Below are positions 601 through 64,000 of a stretch of 64,000 bases of DNA, piece by piece. This stretch comes from Hypomesus transpacificus. Its lineage: Eukaryota > Chordata > Actinopteri > Osmeriformes > Osmeridae. Numbering within the stretch: the first letter of the stretch is position 1; every line of letters begins with the position of its first letter. The stretch covers positions 11,847,051-11,911,050 of the forward strand of contig NC_061074.1 in NCBI RefSeq assembly GCF_021917145.1. The letters are read 5' to 3'. Made by a program: the position numbers and the translations under genes. Below the pieces are notes generated by a model, which worked only from the letters and a program-made list of their open reading frames with translations, searched no databases and was not told the origin of the DNA.

Positions 601-2417
601 GGAGAGTTGGACAGGGCTGTAGAAGGAGAGCTGGACAGGGCTGTAGAAGGAGAGCTGGACAGGGCTGTAGAAGGAGAGTTGGACAGGGCTGTAGAAGGAG
701 AGCTGGACAGGGCTGTAGAAGGAGAGCTGGACAGGGCTGTAGAAGGAGAGTTGGACAGGGCTGTAGAAGGAGAGTTGGATAGGGCTGTAGAAGGATAACT
801 GGACGGGGCTGTAGAAGGAGAGCTGGGCAGGGCTGTAGAAGGAGAGTTGGACAGGGCTGTAGAAGGAGAGCTGGACAGGGCTGTAGAAGGAGAGCTGGAC
901 AGGGCTGTAGAAGGAGAGCTGGAAAGGGGTGTAGAAGGAGAGTTGGATAGGGCTGTAGAAGGAGAACTGGACAGGGCTGTAGAAGGAGAGTTGGACAGGG
1001 CTGTAGAAGGATAACTGGACGGGGCTGTAGAAGGAGAGCTGGGCAGGGCTGTAGAAGGAGAGTTGGACAGGGCTGTAGAAGGAGAGCTGGACAGGGCTGT
1101 AGAAGGAGAGTTGGACAGGGCTGTAGAAGGAGAGCTGGGCAGGGCTGTAGAAGGAGAGTTGGACAGGGCTGTAGAAGGAGAGCTGGACAGGGCTGTAGAA
1201 GGAGAGTAGAAGGAGAGCTGGACAGGGCTGTAGAAGGAGAGTTGGACAGGGCTGTAGAAGGAGAGCTGGGCAGGGCTGTAGAAGGAGAGCTGGACAGGGC
1301 TGTAGAAGGAGAGCTGGACAGGGCTGTAGAAGGAGAGCTGGACAGGGCTGTAGAAGGAGAGCTGGACAGGGCTGTAGATGGAGAGCTGGGCAGGGCTGTA
1401 GAAGGAGAGCTGGACAGGGCTGTAGAAGGAGAGCTGGGCAGGGCTGTAGAAGGAGAGCTGGACAGGGCTGTAGAAGGAGAGCTGGACAGGGCTGTAGAAG
1501 GAGAGCTGGACAGGGCTGTAGAAGGAGAGTTGGACAGGGCTGTAGAAGGAGAGCTGGGCAGGGCTGTAGAAGGAGAGCTGGACAGGGCTGTAGAAGGAGA
1601 GTTGGACAGGGCTGTAGAAGGAGAGCTGGACAGGGCTGTAGAAGGAGAGTTGGACAGGGCTGTAGAAGGAGAGCTGGACAGGGCTGTAGAAGGAGAGTTG
1701 GACAGGGCTGTAGAAGGAGAGCTGGACAGGGCTGTAGAAGGAGAGCTGGACAGGGCTGTAGAAGGAGAGCTGGGCAGGGCTGTAGAAGGAGAGCTGGGCA
1801 GGGCTGTATAAGGAGAGTTGGACAGGGCTGTAGAAGGAGAGCTGGGCAGGGCTGTAGAAGGAGAGTTGGACAGGGCTGTAGAATGAGATCTGGGCAGGGC
1901 TGTAGAAGGAGAGTTGGACAGGGCTGTAGAAGGAGAGCTGGGCAGGGCTGTAGAAGGAGAGCTGGACAGGGCTGTAGAAGGAGAGTTGGACAGGGCTGTA
2001 GAAGGAGAGCTGGACAGGGCTGTAGAAGGAGAGTTGGACAGGGCTGTAGAAGGAGAGCTGGACAGGGCTGTAGAAGGAGAGCTGGACAGGGCTGTAGAAG
2101 GAGAGTTGGACAGGGCTGTAGAAGGAGAACTGGACGGGGCTGTAGAAGGAGAGCTGGGCAGGGCTGTAGAAGGAGAGTTGGACAGGGCTGTAGAAGGAGA
2201 GCTGGACAGGGCTGTAGAAGGAGAGCTGGACAGGGCTGTAGAAGGAGAGCTGGAAAGGGGTGTAGAAGGAGAGCTGGACAGGGCTGTAGAAGGAGAACTG
2301 GACAGGGCTGAAGAAGGAGAGATGGACAGGGCTGTAGAAGGAGAGTTGGACAGGGCTGTAGAAGGAGAACTGGACAGGGCTGTAGAAGGAGAGCTGGACA
2401 GGGCCGTAGAAGGGCAT
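594..2417. repeat. 24-bp minisatellite, about 76 units, grown inside a transposase gene
   Basis: This is a near-perfect tandem array of a 24-base unit containing GAGCTGGACAGGGCTGTAG and the variants GAGTTGGACAGG, GAGCTGGGCAGG and GAACTGGACAGG. The array length divided by 24 gives about 76 copies. One short unit occurs at 1201-1212 and one ATGAGAT variant near 1884. The unit is divisible by three, so long open frames run through it on both strands; they are artefacts. The flanking sequence on both sides is Tc1 transposase, and the unit matches the single segment expected at that point of the transposon, so the array arose by expansion of transposon sequence. Confidence 0.93.
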
Positions 2418-3039
2418 GGACCCAGCTGCAGGAGCCGGATCAGCTCCTACGTGTGAGGAGTCACAGGAGGAGCTCTGCCAGAGCCCTACAACATGACCTC
2501 CAGGGGGCTACTGGTGTGCGTGTTTCTGACCAAACTGTCAGAAACAGACTTCATGAGGGTGGCATGAGGGCTAGATGTTGTCAGTAGTGCATGCAGGCAC
2601 CTGGGGGCCACGCTAGTCACATCACGAGTTGCCGTGATGAAATTCAAACAAGTTGGAACAGCTTTGGATTTCAACTGTTGACTTTGATTTTCGGTGGGAG
2701 TTTAGCTCCAGCCCTCAATCGTTGGTTATATTGGTTTCCATTGACAAATGTTACATCATTTTGTTTTCATTGAATTGCACAATGTACACTCAAGATTTGG
2801 TCCTTATTAATATGTTTTCTTCATCAAGACCCAGTGTGTGATTTAGGTGTTCCCTTGATTTAGTTTGAGCAGTGTGTGTTTGCCCAACCTTTCTTGATTG
2901 TCCTTCAGGATTGAAAAGTGAAAATAAACATGGCTTGTTTGGTACGGTGTTTTGCTCAGTGAATACAGTCAAGAGAAGTTCACGAACAGAGGATGTATAC
3001 CTCTATGGACGTTTTTTCCTTGTTGTTTTTTTTCCTCAG

Positions 3040-8787
<5,748 letters not shown>

Positions 8788-10572: not shown

Positions 10573-11264
10573 GTAAGAACATAACAGAAACCTATTTACA
10601 CGTATAACGGTAAAATTAATTTTAAGTGAGTAAGCTTGAGTGGTAAGCAGTTGCTACATTGTATCATGCGTACAATTCACCTTGTATGCCAACTAGTTAA
10701 ATGGGATCCATTCATTAGTTCTTAGGTATTACTGGAACACTCCACATGTGGAAGGCTTACATTTAGTTCAACTTCTTCAAATATAAACATTGGACACACG
10801 CACACACACAGTAGACTAGTAGGTAGACTACTATCTGTTATATTTAAATCGCTGTGAGTTAGAGAACTGCATGTCAGGACTTAACTTACATAGCCTTATG
10901 AAGGCAGTGGTCTGTCATCACCCGCACATTCCTCTACAGCAGAACAGTGTGACAGAAAAGAAAAGGAGAAACAAAACTATAAACATAAAAAAGCCACAAA
11001 TGGCCCAAAACAAATAACCACGCACACACATTCTTACTTGAGTTCTTGAGTTTCTGTTAGGGGCTGTTAGTTGTTCTGGAACTGTCATAGGCATTTAGCA
11101 CCATTGCTTGTTAGGCAGTGTTGAAACCTCAAGGTGCAAACACTTAACAGCTCCACTCCTTGTTTCTTTTTCTCTTTTTTTTTCTCTTCCAATTTTTCTT
11201 TTGTCTTCTCTCTCCCTCGTTCTTTTCCTCTCATGTGTGCTAGTACAGTCAGAGAGACCTAACA

Positions 11265-14200
11265 ATGGGACGCCTCTCCATTGTGTGTCTATGTGTGCTG
11301 TTGGCCCTGTGTGGCCACCCGGGGGCGCTCTCCCTGGCCCCCTCTTATGGCGAGCGGGGCTCAGACCTGGGTCTCCAGGTGTTCCAGCAGGTGGTACGTT
11401 CTAGACCCCAGGAGAATGTGGTGATCTCTCCCCACGGTGTGGCCTCCGTCCTAGGCATGCTAATGCCGGGAGCACATGCAGAGACTAGGAGACAGCTTCT
11501 CACTGCACTCCGCTACAAGAAGAACGGTATGAACGATTTAGATATGCCAGAACGTATGCGTTCCCCACTATTGTTTTTAAATGGCTAACATTATTCATAT
11601 GACTACCATGTCAGTCTGAATGCAGCTTTACAAGAATGTCCATCCTGAATGATTCAAGGTTCATTTTGGAACCAGGGTTTATGTTCCGCTGATTGTTTCT
11701 CTTCCTCCAGGCCCTTACAAAATGTTGAAGAAACTCCACAAGACTCTGACATCCAAGTCCAACCAGGACATTGTGACCATCGCTAACGCCATGTTCACCC
11801 AGGAAGGTTTCCCCATGATGGGGGACTTTGTAAACACCAACCAGGAAAACTTCCAGTGTGAGGCTAAGAGCATGGATTTCAGCAACACAGAGAGGGCCGC
11901 CAATATCATCAATGACTGGGTCAATAACCGTACCAAAGGTTTGACATATCAAATTGCCTAGTGACTGTTCTGATCAATGAAAGCAGGATGATTATTTGAG
12001 GGATGCTGTTGGATCAGTGTATCTGTATAGTCATCATGCATGATCTCTTACTTGGTTGTATCGTTTGTATGTTTCCCACAGGCCTAATCCCAAGCCTGTT
12101 GAAGCCAGACATGTTGGACGGAGCCCTAACGCGTCTGGTAGCGGTCAACTCCATTTACTTCAAGGGCCTGTGGAAGTCTCGCTTCCTGCCTGAGAACACC
12201 AAGATGAGGACCTTCAATGGAGGCAACGGGAACACTTACAAGGTCCCCATGATGTCCCAGTTGTCTGTCTTCAATATAGGTCAGTTTCCAGGGGTCTTCT
12301 GTCATGGTCCAATCTCTACAGTCTTTAGAACTGGAGAGACGTGAGACCATAAAGCATTCGCATTACTTGGTGTTTAGCTACATTTTGTCATTGTCACTGT
12401 GTCTGACAGTTGGGCTAAAATGTGTTTCCTCGACTTATTCCTTGACCAGTGTGGTTATACTTGCAGTATGTGTCATAAAGGGAAGTTGGTACAGTACATG
12501 TCAGTATTGTGTTTAAATGTCATAATTCCCATGGTGCTTTGCTCTGGGCTGTTTGAGGGTTGTGGATGACTTCCTAGTTGCTGGTTTGGATTTATGAATG
12601 ACTTAAGATGGCTTCTTAGAAACAGATTAAGCTTTGTACCAGACTAAAATGACTTCCGATAGAAGATTTTCATCTAAGATACTTTGAAGTTCAAGATTAG
12701 GCTGCTCAAGTATTTAAGTACCTGGGTGTATATTTAACTCTTCAATTTCCAGCTTCTCTGAAATCAATAAATCTTATATAAAAAAAGCATTTATCTAAAT
12801 CTTTAAAACCTCTATAACACAAATGACTGCAATAAAAGACCTATGAACTCACAGATCAAAGTAATTAAATTCCTCAAGTGATTTACAGAGAAATCCATAC
12901 AGCCAACTTTGATTTACTTTACATTTATATACAGAGTTGACTATTTATTAGTTTCCATTGCCATTTGTTTTAGGTATATGCCATCTTTGTAGTTGATGGA
13001 TACATGTTGCACTCTGATTTTAGTCTTTTGGGAATTGAATGTATTTAAGTCGAGAGTTCACTCTGACAGTGCTGTGTGGATTGATATCACTGTTGTTTGG
13101 GTGTTAGCCACCTCCGCACCACAGCGAGTTATTGGCAGGGCATGAAAACTGGTCATCCAGGTTGTAACCAAAGCCAAGCAACAAGGATGTTGGAGAATAG
13201 CAAGTCACTGTGGAGCAGTTGCATTTACATGCATGACAAAAGTGTTGTTGTGTTTGAACACAAGCTAACTAGCTTTAAGTCTGAACGTTACCAGTGACCC
13301 CCTGAACTTTGGTCTGATCCCCTTCTCTGATAGGTCTAGCCAGCACCCCCCAGGGCCTGAAGTACATGGTTATTGAGCTACCGTATCACGGCAACAGCTT
13401 GAGCATGCTGATAGTCTTGCCCTCCGAGGATGTGCTCCTTGCAGATGTGGTTCCACACATCAGCACAGCCACTGTACAGAGCTGGACCAAACTGCTGCAC
13501 CTGGGGAAGATCCGCCTCATGCTTCCTAAGTAGGACTCACATACGCACAATCGCACATACACACATTCATGTTTGGGCACAAAACATTTACACAAGTAAA
13601 CAAACACACACTCACTGCCGTGTCATAAATGCCCTGTAATTGCCTCTCGTGATGTACAGTACACGACACGTAGACTCAGGATAAAACAGTGAGTCACTTT
13701 AATCTTTTCTGTTTAACTTTCAATGGTTTAACATTACGCAACCCGAAAAACTTCTTGCATAAGTGAATACGGGTGGAATATGACGCTGTCAAATTACCTC
13801 ATATATTTCCACATCCTCTTTGAACTGATTGTACCCCATTTAAATGTTGTCTCCACAAAATAATAGCGCTTAAATGTAAATAAAAGAGCATTTAAAATCC
13901 GCCTACCTGAGAATTTGAATGCTAACTTACTATTTGTGTAGGTTTACTGCAGACGCAGAGGTGGACCTTGGAGCTCCCCTTTCGGCACTGGGGATAACAG
14001 ACATCTTTGATGAGGGCAAAGCAGACTTCAGACACCTGAGTAAGTAATGTTGGCGTCGTAGAAGCCACATCACTCGCAACGGATTTGCATCAGTCTGAGT
14101 CAGGGTGTCGATGAAACTGTGACTGGAGCCAATGCGAAATTCCGTTTCACTGCTTACTGTGATGAGGGCTTCAAATAGCCATGAGTCATGTCTCGCTGTG

Positions 14201-30281: not shown

Positions 30282-32823
30282 ATGGTAAGTTCTTGAATAG
30301 AAATCGGTAACTATTCAGGATGTGGCATTCATATGCTGAAGAAGCTATTATAATAGCCTAACACCTGTTCTATATGTGAGGAAGGATCTGTTCTTTTTAG
30401 ACAGGTGATAAAGTCTGCGGTGTTTTCACACCTTGGCTAGTTGTGTGTACGGAGTGTCATCTCCACCTGTTTTAGTTCCTAATGTTGGTATAATCTGGAG
30501 TGCGAATGGGAAATTATAAAAGAAACGTATAGGTCAAAGAGCACCACTGAAAATCTTTCCCGAGAATGAATGGCTTCGTTAAGGCGATAGTGTATCCTCA
30601 TCCAACAAAGTAGCATATATCATAACACTCGTTTGCTTTTAAGAACGTATTGTGGATCTATTGTGTCAGTAAGTACGCTTATGTCTTTGGCTGATAGTTA
30701 ACATGAGGTAGGTTGTGTTCCACTTGTGTGAGTATGCAGTGGGCAAGGCTTCATGTCCTATGTGTTTATGTGAGCGGTGCATTTTTCTCCAGTTACTGAT
30801 TAACTGCACGTTAATTACAACGTTTGTAGACTTAGACCATGGCCCTCCAAAAAACTTGTCAGGCACGTTTTTATCTGTCGCTCTAAAGACAATATGTTCA
30901 TAACCACTGCCAGCCATTTTATAACCATCTTCCCAATTGTAAATTAATTTCCTATAATTCACACCATAAGATACTATTTATATCTGCCATGATCTAGCCT
31001 GTATTCATATCAAATATGGTCTACTCTATATAATCACATGGTACTAAATCGTAAACCTATGACTCAACTTTACCTAATTCTTGTCCCGCAACAGATGCAC
31101 TTCCTGTTGCTCTTCAGCCGACAGGGGAAGTTGCGGCTGCAGAAGTGGTTCACCCCGCTCCCGGATCGAGAGAAGAAGAAGGTGATCAGGGACATGACCC
31201 TGATGGTGCTGGCCCGCCCACCACGCTCTTGCAACTTCCTGCAATGGAGGGACCTCAAGATCGTCTACAAGAGGTGAGGAGGGTGGTGGATGGGTAAGTG
31301 AGGAGGGTGGTGGATGGGTAAGTGAGGAGGGTGGTGGATGGGTAGGTGAGGAGGGTGGTGGATGGGTAAGTGAGGAGGGTGGTGGATGGGTAAGTGAGGA
31401 GGGTGGTGGATGGGTAGGAGAGGAGAGTGGTGGATGGGTAAGTGAGGAGGGTGGTGGATGGGTAAGTGAGGAGGGTGGTGGATGGGTAAGTGAGGAGGAT
31501 AGTGGATGGGTAAGTGAGGAGGATAGTGGATGGGTAAGTGAGGAGGGTGGTGGATGGGTAAGTGAGGAGGGTGGTGGATGGGTAAGTGAGGAGGATAGTG
31601 GATGGGTAAGTGAGGAGGATAGTGGATGGGTAAGTGAGGAGGGTGGTGGATGGGTAAGTGAGGAGGGTGGTGGATGGGTAGGAGAGGAGAAGAAGGCAGA
31701 ACTCACTTTCATCCTCACACTCAAACATAAACACACACAAACACAAACAAACATATGACCACAACTCACTTCCACGAAACACAACAGTGAAACACATTAT
31801 AAACTCACAAAGCCAGGGGCACAGGTTAGGGGCTAAATAGTCTCTAGACCTCATTCGTTCCACAGAAATGGGTATAATGTACAGGACCACCAATATACGC
31901 CTCTTCAGTTAACTTTGAAGAACTTTGTTTGACCTCTTCCTGTGTACTGTAGGTATGCCAGTCTTTATTTCTGCTGTGGTCTGGAAGACCAGGACAATGA
32001 GCTGCTGACCCTGGAGGTGCTACATCGATATGTGGAGCTTCTGGATAAATATTTTGGCAATGTAAGAGTGATAGGGGATGTAATCTAAGTGTAAGGGGAG
32101 TCAGGTGGCTGAGCGGTTAGGGAATTGGGCTGGTAATCCAAAGATTGCTGGTTCGATTCCCAGCCAAATGACGTTGTGTCCTTGGGCAAGGCGCTTCACC
32201 CTACTTGCCTCGGGGGAATGTCCCTGTACTTACTGTAAGTCGCTCTGGATAAGAGTGTCTGTAAAATGTTAATAGGACTGTATAGTCATGTTTTCAGCAC
32301 ACTTATCTTGCAAGGGTTTCTTGAGAAAATGTTCTTTATATCAAGAAGTTCATTTTAAAAATGTACATTTAATTTAAGAGGTGTTTGTTACACAATGTGT
32401 GTTTTTTAATTAATGATTTATTTTGCTGCTCTGACTGATAAGGACATTTGATGTGTTTGGTCTTGCCTGCAGGTGTGTGAGTTGGATATCATATTTAACT
32501 TTGAAAAGGCCTACTTCATCCTGGATGAGTTCCTAATGGAAGGGGAGATCCTGGAAACCTCCAAAAAAGCTGTAGGGACCTCCATAGAGGAAGCCGACTC
32601 CCAACAGGAGGTAGTTTGGAACTGACCTTCTTTAACTAAGTATTTTCATAAAAGAATTTGCCCCTTACTGCCTACTACGAAAAGCCAATATTATTGTTAT
32701 CATGCTATTTGATGTAATTTCCTGTTGTTTTGAAGGTAGATGAAATACATTTGGATTTAAATCAATATTCTCTTGGTCTCTTCACAGACAATGGAGGAAT
32801 ACATGAGTAAGCCTACATACTGA
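30282..32823 (+). CDS. ap1s3: AP-1 clathrin adaptor complex subunit sigma-3
   Basis: This is a complete 154-residue small (sigma) subunit of the AP-1 adaptor, which sorts cargo into clathrin coats at the trans-Golgi and endosomes. Five coding exons: 30282-30284 (only the ATG, then donor GTAAGT), 31095-31273, 31953-32061, 32473-32610 and 32788-32823 (TGA). The protein begins [19 protein letters not shown]. It continues with [35 protein letters not shown] and [20 protein letters not shown], and ends [11 protein letters not shown]. The ending matches AP1S3 (EEYMNKPTF) and not AP1S1 or AP1S2. A first exon holding just the initiator Met is usual for AP-1 sigma genes. A minisatellite starts exactly at the exon 2 donor and a SINE lies in the next intron but one. 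A poly(A) signal is at 33220-33225. Confidence 0.95.
31274..31685. repeat. 24-bp minisatellite beginning at the ap1s3 exon 2 donor
   Basis: About 17 units of a 24-base repeat carry GTGAGGAGGGTGGTGGATGG plus GTAA, with GGATAGTGG and GGAGAGG variants. The first unit begins with the authentic donor GTGAGG. The unit join GGGTAAGTGAG is a near-consensus 5' splice site and occurs about 14 times, plus GGGTAGGTGAG once. Confidence 0.93.
32097..32270 (+). mobile_element. tRNA-derived SINE in ap1s3 intron 3
   Basis: The 5' head has polymerase III promoter boxes: A box TGGCTGAGCGG at 32106-32116 and perfect B box GGTTCGATTCC at 32150-32160, as in a tRNA-Leu/Ser-like gene. The body (AAATGACGTTGTGTCCTTGG...CTTCACCCTACTTGCCTC) and the tail CTCTGGATAAGAGTGTCTG match a second copy at 45245. 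It has no tRNA acceptor fold, so it is not a tRNA gene. The orientation is the same as ap1s3. Confidence 0.88.
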
Positions 32824-34069: not shown

Positions 34070-36085
34070 CTACATTCCTTTGACAGATTTGGCATTAAGG
34101 TCCTTGTCTTCACTCTCGTCGGTCTCTGGGTTTAAGAAGCTCAGAATTTTCAGTAGTGCCTCATCATCTAATGGTTGCGTTTGAGTTGCACCTCCCATGT
34201 CTTCGGTTTCTGACTGCCTTTTTTGAGATTTACTTTTGTCTGAGTCCATATGGTCAAAGTAGTCCTGTATCGCCTGTTCAAACGTTCCAAGGGCGGGCTG
34301 CTCCTTCTGCGAGAAAGGCTGAGAAGATCGCTTTGGGCTTGCTTTGCTTTTAATTGGCTCCGGATACAACGCCAACATTTGGCCTGTTAAATATGTTGCT
34401 AGCTCGTCTTCGTCAACAGAATCGCCATAGTCATCCTTTATTTCCTCGGGAACGCCAGCATGAGAGAATGTGCGGTCTCCTTGCCTTGCAGCTGGCGCGG
34501 GGGAGCTTTTATGATGTTTGACTGTGGTCGCCTTCTGATTTCCCAGGCTTCCCAGTCCGAGGATGTTTAGAATGTCATCTGTGTTTATGTCTTCTGTGAT
34601 ATCTCTTGCTTGGGCCTCAGGCAGCTGTCTGTTGTAATAATTTGCAGGGGGGCTTTTATACTTTTGGTAAGAGTTCAGCTTATCCTCAACCTTGGCTAAA
34701 ATGTTGGGCTTGTGTGTCTTTGCTAGAATCCTCTGCGGGGTTCGTTCTTGTTGAATGCCCTCTCCAGACTTAAGCATATCCAACAGATCATCTGGAGGTA
34801 TCTGTAAATTCTGGGAGATTCTGATAAGCTGGTAGATAGCCTCGGGGTCGATGGACTGAGTCGCCCTTCTAACAGCCCTTTTCTCTTCCTCTTCTAGCTC
34901 TCTTTTCTGTTGATCCTCCTCGGTTTTCTCCAGCACCTTTAACAGGTAGTAGTCCACCAGCTTTGTGAGGTCATCTGAATCTTCTCCTGGGCCAGACTGT
35001 GTTGACCTTTTTGCCGGGTAATTGCTCTCATCATCATCATCATCCTCCTCTTCCTCCTCCTCAACATCCTCGTCATCGTCAAGGCCTCGGTCAAACTCTT
35101 TCCCGTTGCCTCTCTCTTCCTCCTCCATCCTGATCTGTTTCTCCAAAGGTGCCCAGTCCTCTTCTGCAGGCTCTTCATCGTAGTCCAGGTTCCTCATCCT
35201 CAACATGCCATCGTCAGTGTTATCATCCTCTTCATCTTCATCATCCTCAGCATAGGCTTGCCTTTTGTGTCCCGCCTTGCCATTGGCCAGCCGCCCTAGT
35301 TCCTCGAACACAGACTGCAGAGTGGCCAAATTCTGGGGCGTGTACTTCTCCTCCACGTTCTCATTGGTGCGTTTGAAGGGGCTCTCGCGGTCCGAGCTCC
35401 TCTGCCTCTCCTCCTCCTCTCCCTCGCCCTCCTCCCCCTCATCTTCAAACATCAGAGGGTACTTTCTGGGAGGTTTGATACTGCCATGCTGCTGCCACTC
35501 CCACGGATAAGCCCCGCCCTCTACCTGGCTGCCATCCTCCTCCAACTTCGCCGGTCTCCGCCCAGTTCCTGCCCACACTTGGCTTGCAGTGTTGCGTGCC
35601 GGCGCCGGTCTGGGACTTTTTTCTCCCTGTTCGAGGGTACTAAGTAGAGCTTTTAGCCACTCCTGGGTCTTGTCCTCAGTATTGCTTTCTCCTTCATCCT
35701 CCTCTTCCTCCTCCTCCTCTCCATCTTGAGCTCGCCCAGGCTCTCTCTGGGTTTGAGATGGAGAGGTTAGTTTCAGCATTGAGCGTAGTTTTTCTGTGTT
35801 CACGTCTGCGACGTCGTTGTTTGGAGAGTGGCGGTTGTCATCCTCGGGGGCCGCCCCGGTCTGCTGGCGCAGGGTCTCGATGTACTCCAAAGCTTTGAGC
35901 ATGTCAGCGTTAGGGGGCATGTAGGGGGTCCCCCTGCGAGGGTCCGGCTCGCTGGCTGACAGTCTGTGTTCTCTAACTGACGCTCCCTGAACGTCAGCGG
36001 AGCCGAGGATGAGGATGAAGAGCAGCGGGATGAAGGTGAGGAGGAAGGCCATCCATGCCGTAAAGAGCTTGGGTACGGACGGCAT
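34070..36085 (-). CDS. scg2: Secretogranin II, secretoneurin precursor
   Basis: This is a complete 671-residue acidic granin (human 617), a cargo of neuroendocrine dense-core granules cut by prohormone convertases. The whole coding region is one exon, as usual for SCG2; an acceptor at 36093/36094 (GTCCAG) sits eight bases before the ATG. An in-frame ATG at 36121 lies inside the intron, so the start is 36085. A hydrophobic signal runs to about residue 34. The secretoneurin peptide lies at about 240-273 (TNENVEEKYTPQNLATLQSV...) between KR at 238-239 and KR at 274-275. Long Glu/Asp runs occur near 123-133 and in the centre, and many more dibasic sites (KR, RR) are present. The peptide resembles the secretoneurin-a type of teleosts as I recall it, so scg2a is likely. 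The stop is TAG. Confidence 0.95.
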   Translation of the reverse strand: MPSVPKLFTAWMAFLLTFIPLLFILILGSADVQGASVREHRLSASEPDPRRGTPYMPPNADMLKALEYIETLRQQTGAAPEDDNRHSPNNDVADVNTEKLRSMLKLTSPSQTQREPGRAQDGEEEEEEEDEGESNTEDKTQEWLKALLSTLEQGEKSPRPAPARNTASQVWAGTGRRPAKLEEDGSQVEGGAYPWEWQQHGSIKPPRKYPLMFEDEGEEGEGEEEERQRSSDRESPFKRTNENVEEKYTPQNLATLQSVFEELGRLANGKAGHKRQAYAEDDEDEEDDNTDDGMLRMRNLDYDEEPAEEDWAPLEKQIRMEEEERGNGKEFDRGLDDDEDVEEEEEEDDDDDESNYPAKRSTQSGPGEDSDDLTKLVDYYLLKVLEKTEEDQQKRELEEEEKRAVRRATQSIDPEAIYQLIRISQNLQIPPDDLLDMLKSGEGIQQERTPQRILAKTHKPNILAKVEDKLNSYQKYKSPPANYYNRQLPEAQARDITEDINTDDILNILGLGSLGNQKATTVKHHKSSPAPAARQGDRTFSHAGVPEEIKDDYGDSVDEDELATYLTGQMLALYPEPIKSKASPKRSSQPFSQKEQPALGTFEQAIQDYFDHMDSDKSKSQKRQSETEDMGGATQTQPLDDEALLKILSFLNPETDESEDKDLNAKSVKGM

Positions 36086-36093
36086 GGTTTCAC

Positions 36094-37028
36094 CTGGACA
36101 AGATACGAGTAGAGACATCATAAGGGACCTTTTGGAATTACTCTTAACACATTTTTACTGTTTAAAACTGTGGTATTTCCATCATATTGTCTTATGTTAG
36201 CCTATATGTTGCTCAGGTCTGTTAACCTCTTCTTTGTCCTCTATCAGACATCTGGATGTTATTTTGAAAGGATTTTTTTTTTATATAATCAAAACAGCAG
36301 GGTCTGGAATGTTATCTAAAGTCAAAGTAGTTTCATGAACTACATTTGTTTCTACAGCATGTGTTCTAATAGTAGCAGTTCATCTGCTAGTTATCTGCGA
36401 TAGGCTGTTTTATAACCCATCTCTATTGAACAATTAAAAAGATTTCAGTTCACAGTCTTTGCCTGTTGCTTGAATGTTTTTTTCTGTTGGTTGCTGAGAA
36501 TGAAAATGGCATCTGTTGAACGCCCTAATGACTGTTTGCCGACCAGTAATAGCATGGGCATTCAGCTCGCCTGTAAATCTCATTAGTTTTCAAATTGCTG
36601 TTCTCCGGAATGAGTCACACAACCCGTTGTCTTGGTAACCCTTGGACGGATGCTCGCTATAGGCTATATCCACGACGGTCTAGTGTGTTATAATAATAGG
36701 CAACAGTAATATCAAGTTTTCAATGACAACTATTTTATAGTGTCATGCAGGACTGCGAAACTAAAAATAGTGATGCATTTGTACAGATCGTCGATTTATT
36801 TTCCACTTTAGCAAAATTGCTTATCTAAAGAGTCAATTTCTCTGCAAACCCACGAAGCAAAGCTAAACACCATAGCTCTAACTATCAAATAACACTGCAG
36901 TTTAAGCAAATGCATCAGGTTGCTTCAAATGTCCAAATTGAAAAAATCTCAAATAGCCTTATAACCTATATTGTCCAAGCGCAGGATCAGCATAAGCAAA
37001 GTTGAACTTTATAAGGTATTAATCTTAC
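36094..37028 (-). other. Intron in the scg2 5' UTR
   Basis: The donor GTAAGATT is at 37028 and the acceptor GTCCAG is at 36094 on the minus strand. It is A/T-rich with no recognised element. Confidence 0.7.
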
Positions 37029-43439: not shown

Positions 43440-44715
43440 AGCCCGTATTCAGACCTCACACCAGCCTCCACCATAACCAGACCTCACACCAGCCTCCACC
43501 ATGATAACCAGACCTCACACCAGCCTCCACCATAACCAGACCTCACACCAGCCTCCACCATGATAACCAGACCTCACACCAGCCTCCACCATAACCAGAC
43601 CTCACACCAGCCTCCACCATAACCAGACCTCACACCAGCCTCCACCATAACCAGACCTCACACCAGCCAACACCATGATAACCAGACCTCACACCAGCCT
43701 CCACCATGATAACCAGACCTCACACCAGCCTCCACCATAACCAGACCTCACACCAGCCTCCACCATAACCAGACCTCACACCAGCCTCCACCATAACCAG
43801 ACCTCACACCAGCCTCCACCATGATAACCAGACCTCACACCAGCCTCCACCATAACCAGACCTCATACCAGCCTCCACCATGATAACCAGACCTCACACC
43901 AGCCTCCACCATAACCAGACCTCACACCAGCCTCCACCATAACCAGACCTCACACCAGCCTCCACCATAACCAGACCTCACACCAGCCTCCACCATGATA
44001 ACCAGACCTCACACCAGCCTCCACCATAACCAGACCTCACACCAGCCTCCACCATGATAACCAGACCTCACACCAGCCTCCACCATAACCAGACCTCACA
44101 CCAGCCTCCACCATAACCAGACCTCACACCAGCCTCCACCATAACCAGACCTCACACCAGCCTCCACCATGATAACCAGACCTCACACCAGCCTCCACCA
44201 TAACCAGACCTCACACCAGCCTCCACCATAACCAGACCTCACACCAGCCTCCACCATGATAACCAGACCTCACACCAGCCTCCACCATAACCAGACCTCA
44301 CACCAGCCTCCACCATAACCAGACCTCACACCAGCCTCCACCATAACCAGACCTCACACCAGCCTCCACCATAACCAGACCTCACACCAGCCTCCACCAT
44401 AACCAGACCTCACACCAGCCTCCACCATAACCAGACCTCACACCAGCCTCCACCATGATAACCAGACCTCACACCAGCCTCCACCATAACCAGACCTCAC
44501 ATCAGCCTCCACCATAACCAGACCTCACACCAGCCTCCACCATGATAACCAGACCTCACACCAGCCTCCACCATAACCAGACCTCACACCAGCCTCCACC
44601 ATAACCAGACCTCACACCAGCCTCCACCATAACCAGACCTCACACCAGCCTCTAGCTAAACCAGACCTCACACCAGCCTCCACCATGATAACCAGACCTC
44701 ACACCAGCCTCCAGG
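43440..44715. repeat. 28/31-bp minisatellite with 174-bp higher-order structure
   Basis: About 44 units share CCAGACCTCACACCAGCCTC. Short units (28 bases) have ACCATAACC at the joint; long ones (31 bases) have ACCATGATAACC. Long units start at 43498, 43557, 43672, 43703, 43818, 43877, 43992, 44051, 44166, 44253, 44452, 44539 and 44682. The order long-short-long-short-short-short (174 bases) recurs. Confidence 0.93.
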
Positions 44716-51061: not shown

Positions 51062-51586
51062 TTATTTCAGTCCTGCTGAGTCGTCGCTGTTGTCCGAACT
51101 TCCTTTCAAAACTTCATCGGGACTCTCCACAGTTCCACTATCAGACTCCTCTTCTATAGCAAAGTGCACGTCGGCGGAGGAGCATAGTGAACTGACGCTG
51201 CTTTGCTCCATGGAACACAAAGCACAAGCCAGCGGGGACAAGACCTTGCCCTCGTAAACTCCTGGGGAGAAAGGGAGCGATGCCTGTCCTGAGCATAGCC
51301 CCGAGATGGCGGGCCAGGTGATGCTGTGCTTTTTCTTTAACGCTCCCCATTCCCGTTTTTCCTCCTCGTGCAACAGGCGCCTGAATATATTTGACCTCCT
51401 TTTCTCTCGCCTTTTTGAACGAACATAGCCCAGCATTATGCCAAAAAGGAATACACCATAAAAAGACATGACTATCAAAATGTATAGGTAAGCCTTGCCA
51501 TCACTTTGGTCGCTTTGGGACACCACATTTGCCTTCTGCAGGAACAGAATGTCAGGTGCAGTGGAATTGTCGGACCTCTCCATCAT
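51062..51586 (-). CDS. kcne4: Potassium channel regulatory subunit KCNE4 (MiRP3)
   Basis: This is a complete 174-residue single-pass membrane subunit (human about 170) that dampens Kv channels such as KCNQ1 and Kv1. An N-glycosylation site NST at 7-9 lies in the outer part. The membrane segment at about 33-55 reads AYLYILIVMSFYGVFLFGIM, followed at once by the juxtamembrane block YVRSKRREKRRSN that marks KCNE4. The long acidic C-tail keeps LCSMEQSSVSS and DVHFAIEEES. The coding region is one exon, as in all KCNE genes; an acceptor at 51620/51621 (CCTGTAG) lies in the 5' UTR. The first of two adjacent Met codons is taken as the start. Confidence 0.95.
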   Translation of the reverse strand: MMERSDNSTAPDILFLQKANVVSQSDQSDGKAYLYILIVMSFYGVFLFGIMLGYVRSKRREKRRSNIFRRLLHEEEKREWGALKKKHSITWPAISGLCSGQASLPFSPGVYEGKVLSPLACALCSMEQSSVSSLCSSADVHFAIEEESDSGTVESPDEVLKGSSDNSDDSAGLK

Positions 51587-51754
51587 TAGTGCAGGTTATG
51601 AAGAGGACCGCTTGAGTTTCCTACAGGGGAAAATATACAGTGTCGTTAGGCTATGATTTTGACAACTGTGAGGTTTAGTCCATTTAGTTCACACGTGTGT
51701 GTCTTTTACGAAACTGAATTGCTGTGTTTGTAAAGGTAGGATCGGGACACCTAC

Positions 51755-54789: not shown

Positions 54790-64000
<9,211 letters not shown>

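Follow-up and report, generated by a model that had tools for sequence, protein, structure and literature searches.

What becomes of a splice donor when a minisatellite begins on it and then repeats it? The question is raised by a 24-bp tandem repeat in intron 2 of an ap1s3-type gene, which encodes a clathrin adaptor small chain, in Hypomesus transpacificus. The gene lies in a stretch of 64,000 nucleotides (contig NC_061074.1, positions 11,847,051 to 11,911,050 of the forward strand), which is referred to here as the window. A preliminary description of this DNA took the joins between the repeat units for decoy donors and proposed that their copy number tunes ap1s3 output through U1 binding. 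We regard a different answer as reasonably probable: the array is a donor-derived intronic minisatellite at which the real donor dominates and the decoys leak, and copy number acts through those decoys weakly, if at all.

The array at the exon 2 border

Where exactly does the repeat begin, and what does each unit contain? The features that answer this question are as follows.

31095..31273, plus strand: ap1s3-type exon 2, 179 nt, ending AAG AG in phase 2, with a translation that ends DLKIVYKR
31274..31279, plus strand: authentic donor GAG/GTGAGG, the first bases of unit 1
31274..31689, plus strand: 24-bp minisatellite with the consensus GTGAGGAGGGTGGTGGATGGGTAA, from Tandem Repeats Finder (TRF) and a listing of the units
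31292..31662, plus strand: 14 join donors TGG/GTAAGT, the first GT at 31294 and the last at 31654
31342..31351, plus strand: join of units 3 and 4, with TGG/GTAGGT at 31342
31346, plus strand: TAG/GTGAGG in the same join, the nearest copy of the real donor

The array comprises 17.3 copies with 95% matches (TRF score 734) and takes up 61% of the 679-nt intron 2. Its 17 full units are on average 97% identical to the consensus and fall into four types, arranged in the order AABAABCAADDAADDAB. Fourteen of the 17 end in TAA, and three (units 3, 6 and 17) end in TAG. The array opens with the first base of intron 2, and the repeat does not continue into the exon: in register with the unit, the last 24 exonic bases agree with it at 3 of 24 positions. 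The best ungapped 24-mer of exon 2, at 31163, matches a rotation of a unit at 15 of 24 positions, a figure that comes without a chance level. The array thus starts at the exon donor and its unit contains the donor bases, as expected of a donor-derived minisatellite. No exact copy of the unit is present in viral_contigs, where a fish sequence would not be expected.

The preliminary description located the array at the ap1s3 exon 2 donor, with its start exactly at the exon-intron border, and this placement is accurate almost to the base, although the right end lies at about 31689 and not at 31685. The count of about 14 decoy donors at the joins is also correct, since GGGTAAGTGAG has 14 exact matches in the window, each of them at a unit join in the array. 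In 100 dinucleotide shuffles, the same motif appears 0.05 times on average and twice at most. The further proposal that the unit begins with the real donor and that the array is an expansion of the donor region agrees with the sequence, in which the donor region is both included and repeated.

Donor strength and the predicted fate of decoy transcripts

Are the joins better donors than the authentic site? Splice sites were scored with a donor matrix and with the duplex energy against the U1 5' end. The real donor has a matrix score of 10.27 and a U1 duplex of -10.2 kcal/mol, and the 14 joins have 8.91 and -11.1 kcal/mol. At the join of units 3 and 4, TGG/GTAGGT scores 6.34 and -10.8 kcal/mol, and the overlapping TAG/GTGAGG scores 9.68 and -10.0 kcal/mol. 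By U1 energy, 15 of the 74 GT sites of intron 2, a count that includes the real donor, surpass the latter, namely each of the 14 joins plus the site at 31342; by matrix score, none of the 74 does. Among the 4078 plus-strand GT sites outside the array, 0.5% reach -10 kcal/mol. The reason for this conflict between the two measures is that the join combines a poor exonic side, TGG, with an intronic side, GTAAGT, that fits the consensus. The earlier statement that the joins are stronger than the real donor therefore stands for U1 pairing and fails for the matrix, and the stronger form of it, in which decoys outcompete the real donor, is not supported by sites that pair better with U1 but score lower on the matrix.

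Fourteen of the joins between repeat copies nevertheless carry plausible 5' splice sites. The TAA end of a unit weakens the copied real donor (TAA/GTGAGG, matrix 6.34) while it generates GTAAGT. How unusual is such a join? When the donor hexamer was kept and the other 18 bases of the unit were shuffled, 235 of 5000 units reached both join scores (the matrix score by itself was reached by 1532 units and the U1 energy by itself by 328), and when all 24 bases were shuffled, 159 of 5000 did so. Because about 5% of the hexamer-kept shuffles equal the joins on both measures, a join of this strength is no more than mildly unusual given the composition. The idea that the joins are designed U1 sites was considered and is weak, given that 235 of 5000 shuffled units are equally good.

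What would follow from the use of a decoy? Exon 2 extended past 31273 reads AGG TGA, so the translation continues to DLKIVYKR and stops; complete retention of intron 2 ends in the identical VYKR-stop. The preliminary description had predicted that any decoy would place TGA directly after VYKR and that the resulting transcripts would be unproductive. Translation bears out the stop, and the predicted fate agrees with the sequence. Downstream of the stop, the decoy junction follows after 16 to 376 nt and the junction of exons 4 and 5 after 263 to 623 nt. Nonsense-mediated decay (NMD) acts on messages in which the stop precedes a junction by more than 50-55 nt. Given the 263 to 623 nt that separate the stop from the exon 4/5 junction, each decoy message is predicted from its sequence to be a target and should be cleared by NMD.

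The base composition of the array may point to another role. The 416 nt of the array contain no C and 237 G, with 29 runs of GGG or longer and 84 runs of GG or longer, and the array occupies most of one further feature.

31269..31696, plus strand: 428 nt without a C, the longest such run in the window

Elsewhere in the window, a G-rich 8-bp array, TGTGGGGC, extends over 61795-62482 with 84.6 copies (TRF), and some of its 416-nt windows equal the ap1s3 array in a G4Hunter-type score.

GGG motifs of this kind are bound by proteins of the hnRNP H/F type. The array may accordingly be read as a dense GGG block that promotes the real donor upstream of it, possibly with the help of two-layer G-quadruplexes. 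In addition to the G-run counts, this explanation is consistent with quadruplex-aware folding, which brings four units plus short flanks from -14.2 down to -49.5 kcal/mol, and with the stimulation of adjacent upstream donors by G-triplets that is described in PMC5778605. However, folding of one, two and four units draws only two-layer quadruplexes, and the real donor may need no help because it already has the top score among three ap1s3 donors (10.27, 7.32 and 4.95). We rate this explanation highest among the rivals and still unlikely.

In the reading that we favour, a donor-derived repeat with leaky decoys, the G-runs have a supporting part. The real donor would do most of the splicing, backed by the dense GGG runs just downstream, and some of the 14 GTAAGT joins would be used at a low level, yielding VYKR-stop transcripts that are probably cleared by NMD. 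The donor sites and the stop codon are present in the DNA; the dominance of the real donor and the leakage from the decoys are what we infer from them.

Proposed origin and setting of the array

How might the array have arisen, and why does it end so sharply at the exon? Another feature, at the right end of the array, bears on its origin.

31680..31689, plus strand: AGGAGAGGAG, a near-copy (9 of 10 positions) of the exon 2 donor word AGGTGAGGAG (31272-31281), with a putative role as slippage seed

The sequence on the right flank of the array is GTAG GAGAGGAGAA, compared with AG GTGAGGAG at the donor. The ancestral intron may have run from AG/GTGAGGAGGGTGGTGGATGGGTAG into GAGAGGAG, with a near-copy of the donor 24 bp downstream. 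Slippage between AGGTGAGGAG and AGGAGAGGAG would have produced the first 24-bp duplication, starting at the donor, and later expansion would have brought the array to about 17 units. Growth to the left would have been blocked by selection on the exon, which would leave the array edge at the border. Such a sharp left edge needs no function of its own because repetition of the exon side would alter the protein. Unit 7 (GAGAGGAGAG) and the right flank have GAGAGGAGA in common, and each follows a unit that ends in TAG; this likeness is expected if an earlier end of the array was copied into its interior.

Is the coincidence of array and border itself an argument for function? When splice-site positions were drawn at random in this window, 1.4-3.1% of trials placed one no more than 1 nt from the start of an array. 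The estimate is based on five long arrays picked by eye from 65 TRF rows, including the merged overlapping rows at 4044-4676, with nested, short and microsatellite-like rows dropped, and on 60, 100 or 140 splice sites, numbers that were assumed and not counted. We therefore reject the border coincidence as proof of function. Many such coincidences would be expected genome-wide, and position alone is thus no argument for function.

The same estimate bears on the explanation that the repeat is fully inert, its joins never being detectably spliced and its length being without effect. Minisatellites are common here, since we count five long ones in the 65 TRF rows, and a start at a splice site is no great surprise at the rate found in the random trials. 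Against inertness, the reports on human ABCA7 and IFI6, considered below, describe the use of downstream copies to some extent in both genes, and strong donors near an exon would be expected to be seldom wholly unused. We consider a fully inert repeat very unlikely.

Could the exon border simply be misplaced? The remaining exons and the neighbouring genes found in a family scan are listed below.

31953..32061, plus strand: exon 3, starting G TAT GCC (R, then YASLYF)
32473..32610, plus strand: exon 4, with the 3' end GAG/GTAGTT (matrix 4.95), picked by eye
32788..32823, plus strand: probable last coding exon (exon 5), an in-frame join after the acceptor TTCACAG, picked by eye
11244-11588, plus strand: serpin exon
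34073-36154, minus strand: granin open reading frame (ORF)
51065-51595, minus strand: KCNE-type ORF
2312-2587, plus strand: ORF with a Tc3-type transposase segment, HTH_Tnp_Tc3_2

The four exons at 31095-31273, 31953-32061, 32473-32610 and 32788-32823 join in frame to encode 153 residues followed by a stop. The clathrin adaptor small chain domain covers the whole product of exons 2-4 (Pfam Clat_adaptor_s, PF01217, residues 1-140 of 143, E 1.6e-56). A misplaced border is rejected in view of this in-frame join and of the adaptor small chain that exons 2-4 encode. The best Protein Data Bank (PDB) chains for the same product are AP-1 sigma-1A (232.6 bits) and sigma-3 (229.5 bits), with E values of 1e-68 to 1e-67, and these scores do not discriminate ap1s3 from ap1s1. 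Given the family match, the PDB matches and the in-frame join, the gene looks intact. Five of the six window stretches in the family scan matched a family, and the stretch at 411-620 on the plus strand had no match. The human neighbourhood is presumably SCG2-AP1S3-SERPINE2-KCNE4; the granin, KCNE and serpin neighbours fit this order, and ap1s3 is therefore likely the correct name.

Other repeats in the window include a 24-bp minisatellite of about 75 copies at 600-2413 (TRF), which extends to the Tc3-type transposase segment. Its unit reads RRAGQGCR in one frame, its three minus-strand frames are all long and open (625, 637 and 695 aa) and its plus-strand frames are shorter; this array may have grown from transposase coding sequence. 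A 28-bp minisatellite, CAGACCTCACACCAGCCTCCACCATAAC, is found at 43450-44713 in 43.8 copies (TRF), and the compound repeat at 4044-4676 consists of CA runs alternating with a recurring segment around CTGTCTCTCCATGTCATGG (TRF).

Comparison with known systems

Can arrays of this kind change splicing? Intronic variable number tandem repeats (VNTRs) can produce differential splicing (PMC8096271). The VNTR in intron 18 of human ABCA7, the closest precedent, has a 25-bp unit and begins with the GT of the exon 18 donor. The reference carries 23.7 copies, and low-level splicing from the following unit's donor retains exactly one unit (PMC5954066). The frame-shifting isoforms are given there as 14 +/- 6% and 2 +/- 1% 'respectively'; if these figures follow the sequence in which the text brings in the isoforms, one-unit retention represents 2 +/- 1% of transcripts in the tissues compared. 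In that study, VNTR size is without effect on retention, whereas longer VNTRs go with lower expression and more skipping of exon 19; NMD was not affected by VNTR length, and the authors do not ascribe the fall in expression to it (PMC5954066).

These observations bear directly on the tuning mechanism of the preliminary description, in which the joins compete for U1, the share of stop-bearing messages depends on copy number and the array thereby sets ap1s3 output. The better U1 pairing of the 14 joins, the VYKR-stop and predicted NMD of all decoy products and the drop of ABCA7 expression with VNTR length are in its favour. However, no site in the array exceeds the real donor on the matrix, the ABCA7 retention isoform is independent of VNTR length and NMD is excluded by the authors as the cause of lower expression. 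The mechanism is possible, although ABCA7 does not speak for it; tuning through U1 is not supported where retention does not follow repeat length, and we hold this account to be unlikely, somewhat more so than promotion of the real donor by the G-runs.

The donor-derived array with leaky decoys and at most weak copy-number influence through them has its own difficulties, and four points weigh against it. The joins have a U1 pairing advantage of 0.9 kcal/mol over the real donor. Their predicted accessibility is 0.26-0.85, compared with 0.77 for the real donor, and 6 of the 14 are at or above that value (folding without quadruplexes, with pairs spanning up to 200 nt). The right-hand seed AGGAGAGGAG may be a remnant of the array and not its ancestor. 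Finally, by analogy with ABCA7, whose expression fell with VNTR length, a length effect on ap1s3 by another route is possible. The accessibility values were also used to consider whether the joins are concealed by RNA structure, which is not supported because those six joins are as open as the real donor or more so.

The two repeats are alike in unit length (25 bp in ABCA7 and 24 bp in ap1s3), in starting with the GT of the exon donor and in the unproductive outcome of retention. They differ in composition, since the ABCA7 VNTR is described as C-rich, whereas the ap1s3 array is C-free and G-rich. Retention of 25 bp shifts the ABCA7 frame, whereas the ap1s3 stop is immediate and in frame. The length effects in ABCA7 concern exon 19 skipping and lower expression and not retention, and VNTR length varies widely between people, whereas the ap1s3 array is known here from one sequence.

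A second human case is the minisatellite of IFI6 (6-16, G1P3), which was reportedly described by Turri, Cuin and Porter in 1995 and whose repeat unit we take to be 12 bp. This minisatellite offers multiple splice donors, as the ap1s3 array would, and two downstream units are used, yielding three mRNA species that encode isoforms (as cited in PMC4526556). The stop codon in ap1s3, in contrast, precludes a new protein. Because of the ABCA7 and IFI6 cases, low-level use of the decoys is plausible and decoy-based tuning is less likely. Intronic G-triplet enhancers resemble the ap1s3 array in that GGG runs lie right downstream of a donor. They were first described for short introns (PMC5778605), whereas the ap1s3 intron is 679 nt long and its 17-unit array bears donors of its own.

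Do these cases reflect a general process? Donor-derived minisatellites may be recurrent and convergent in vertebrates: G-rich intron starts would expand up to the exon wall, a join mutation from GTAG to GTAA (as in 14 of the 17 units here) would spread and fill the intron with U1 sites, and array length would set the balance between productive and dead-end transcripts. We regard this scheme as improbable. The ap1s3 array provides a clean test of donor choice, since its many identical competitors follow one another in tandem, can be told apart by position and share one coding outcome. Judged by its sequence, it is a further example of a known arrangement, and human ABCA7 and IFI6 carry the same kind of repeat. 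If decoy use is confirmed, the fish gene would add to the two human genes an independent example of a minisatellite that developed from a splice donor; the arrangement would then seem to arise repeatedly, and a computer search for it would be possible in any annotated genome.
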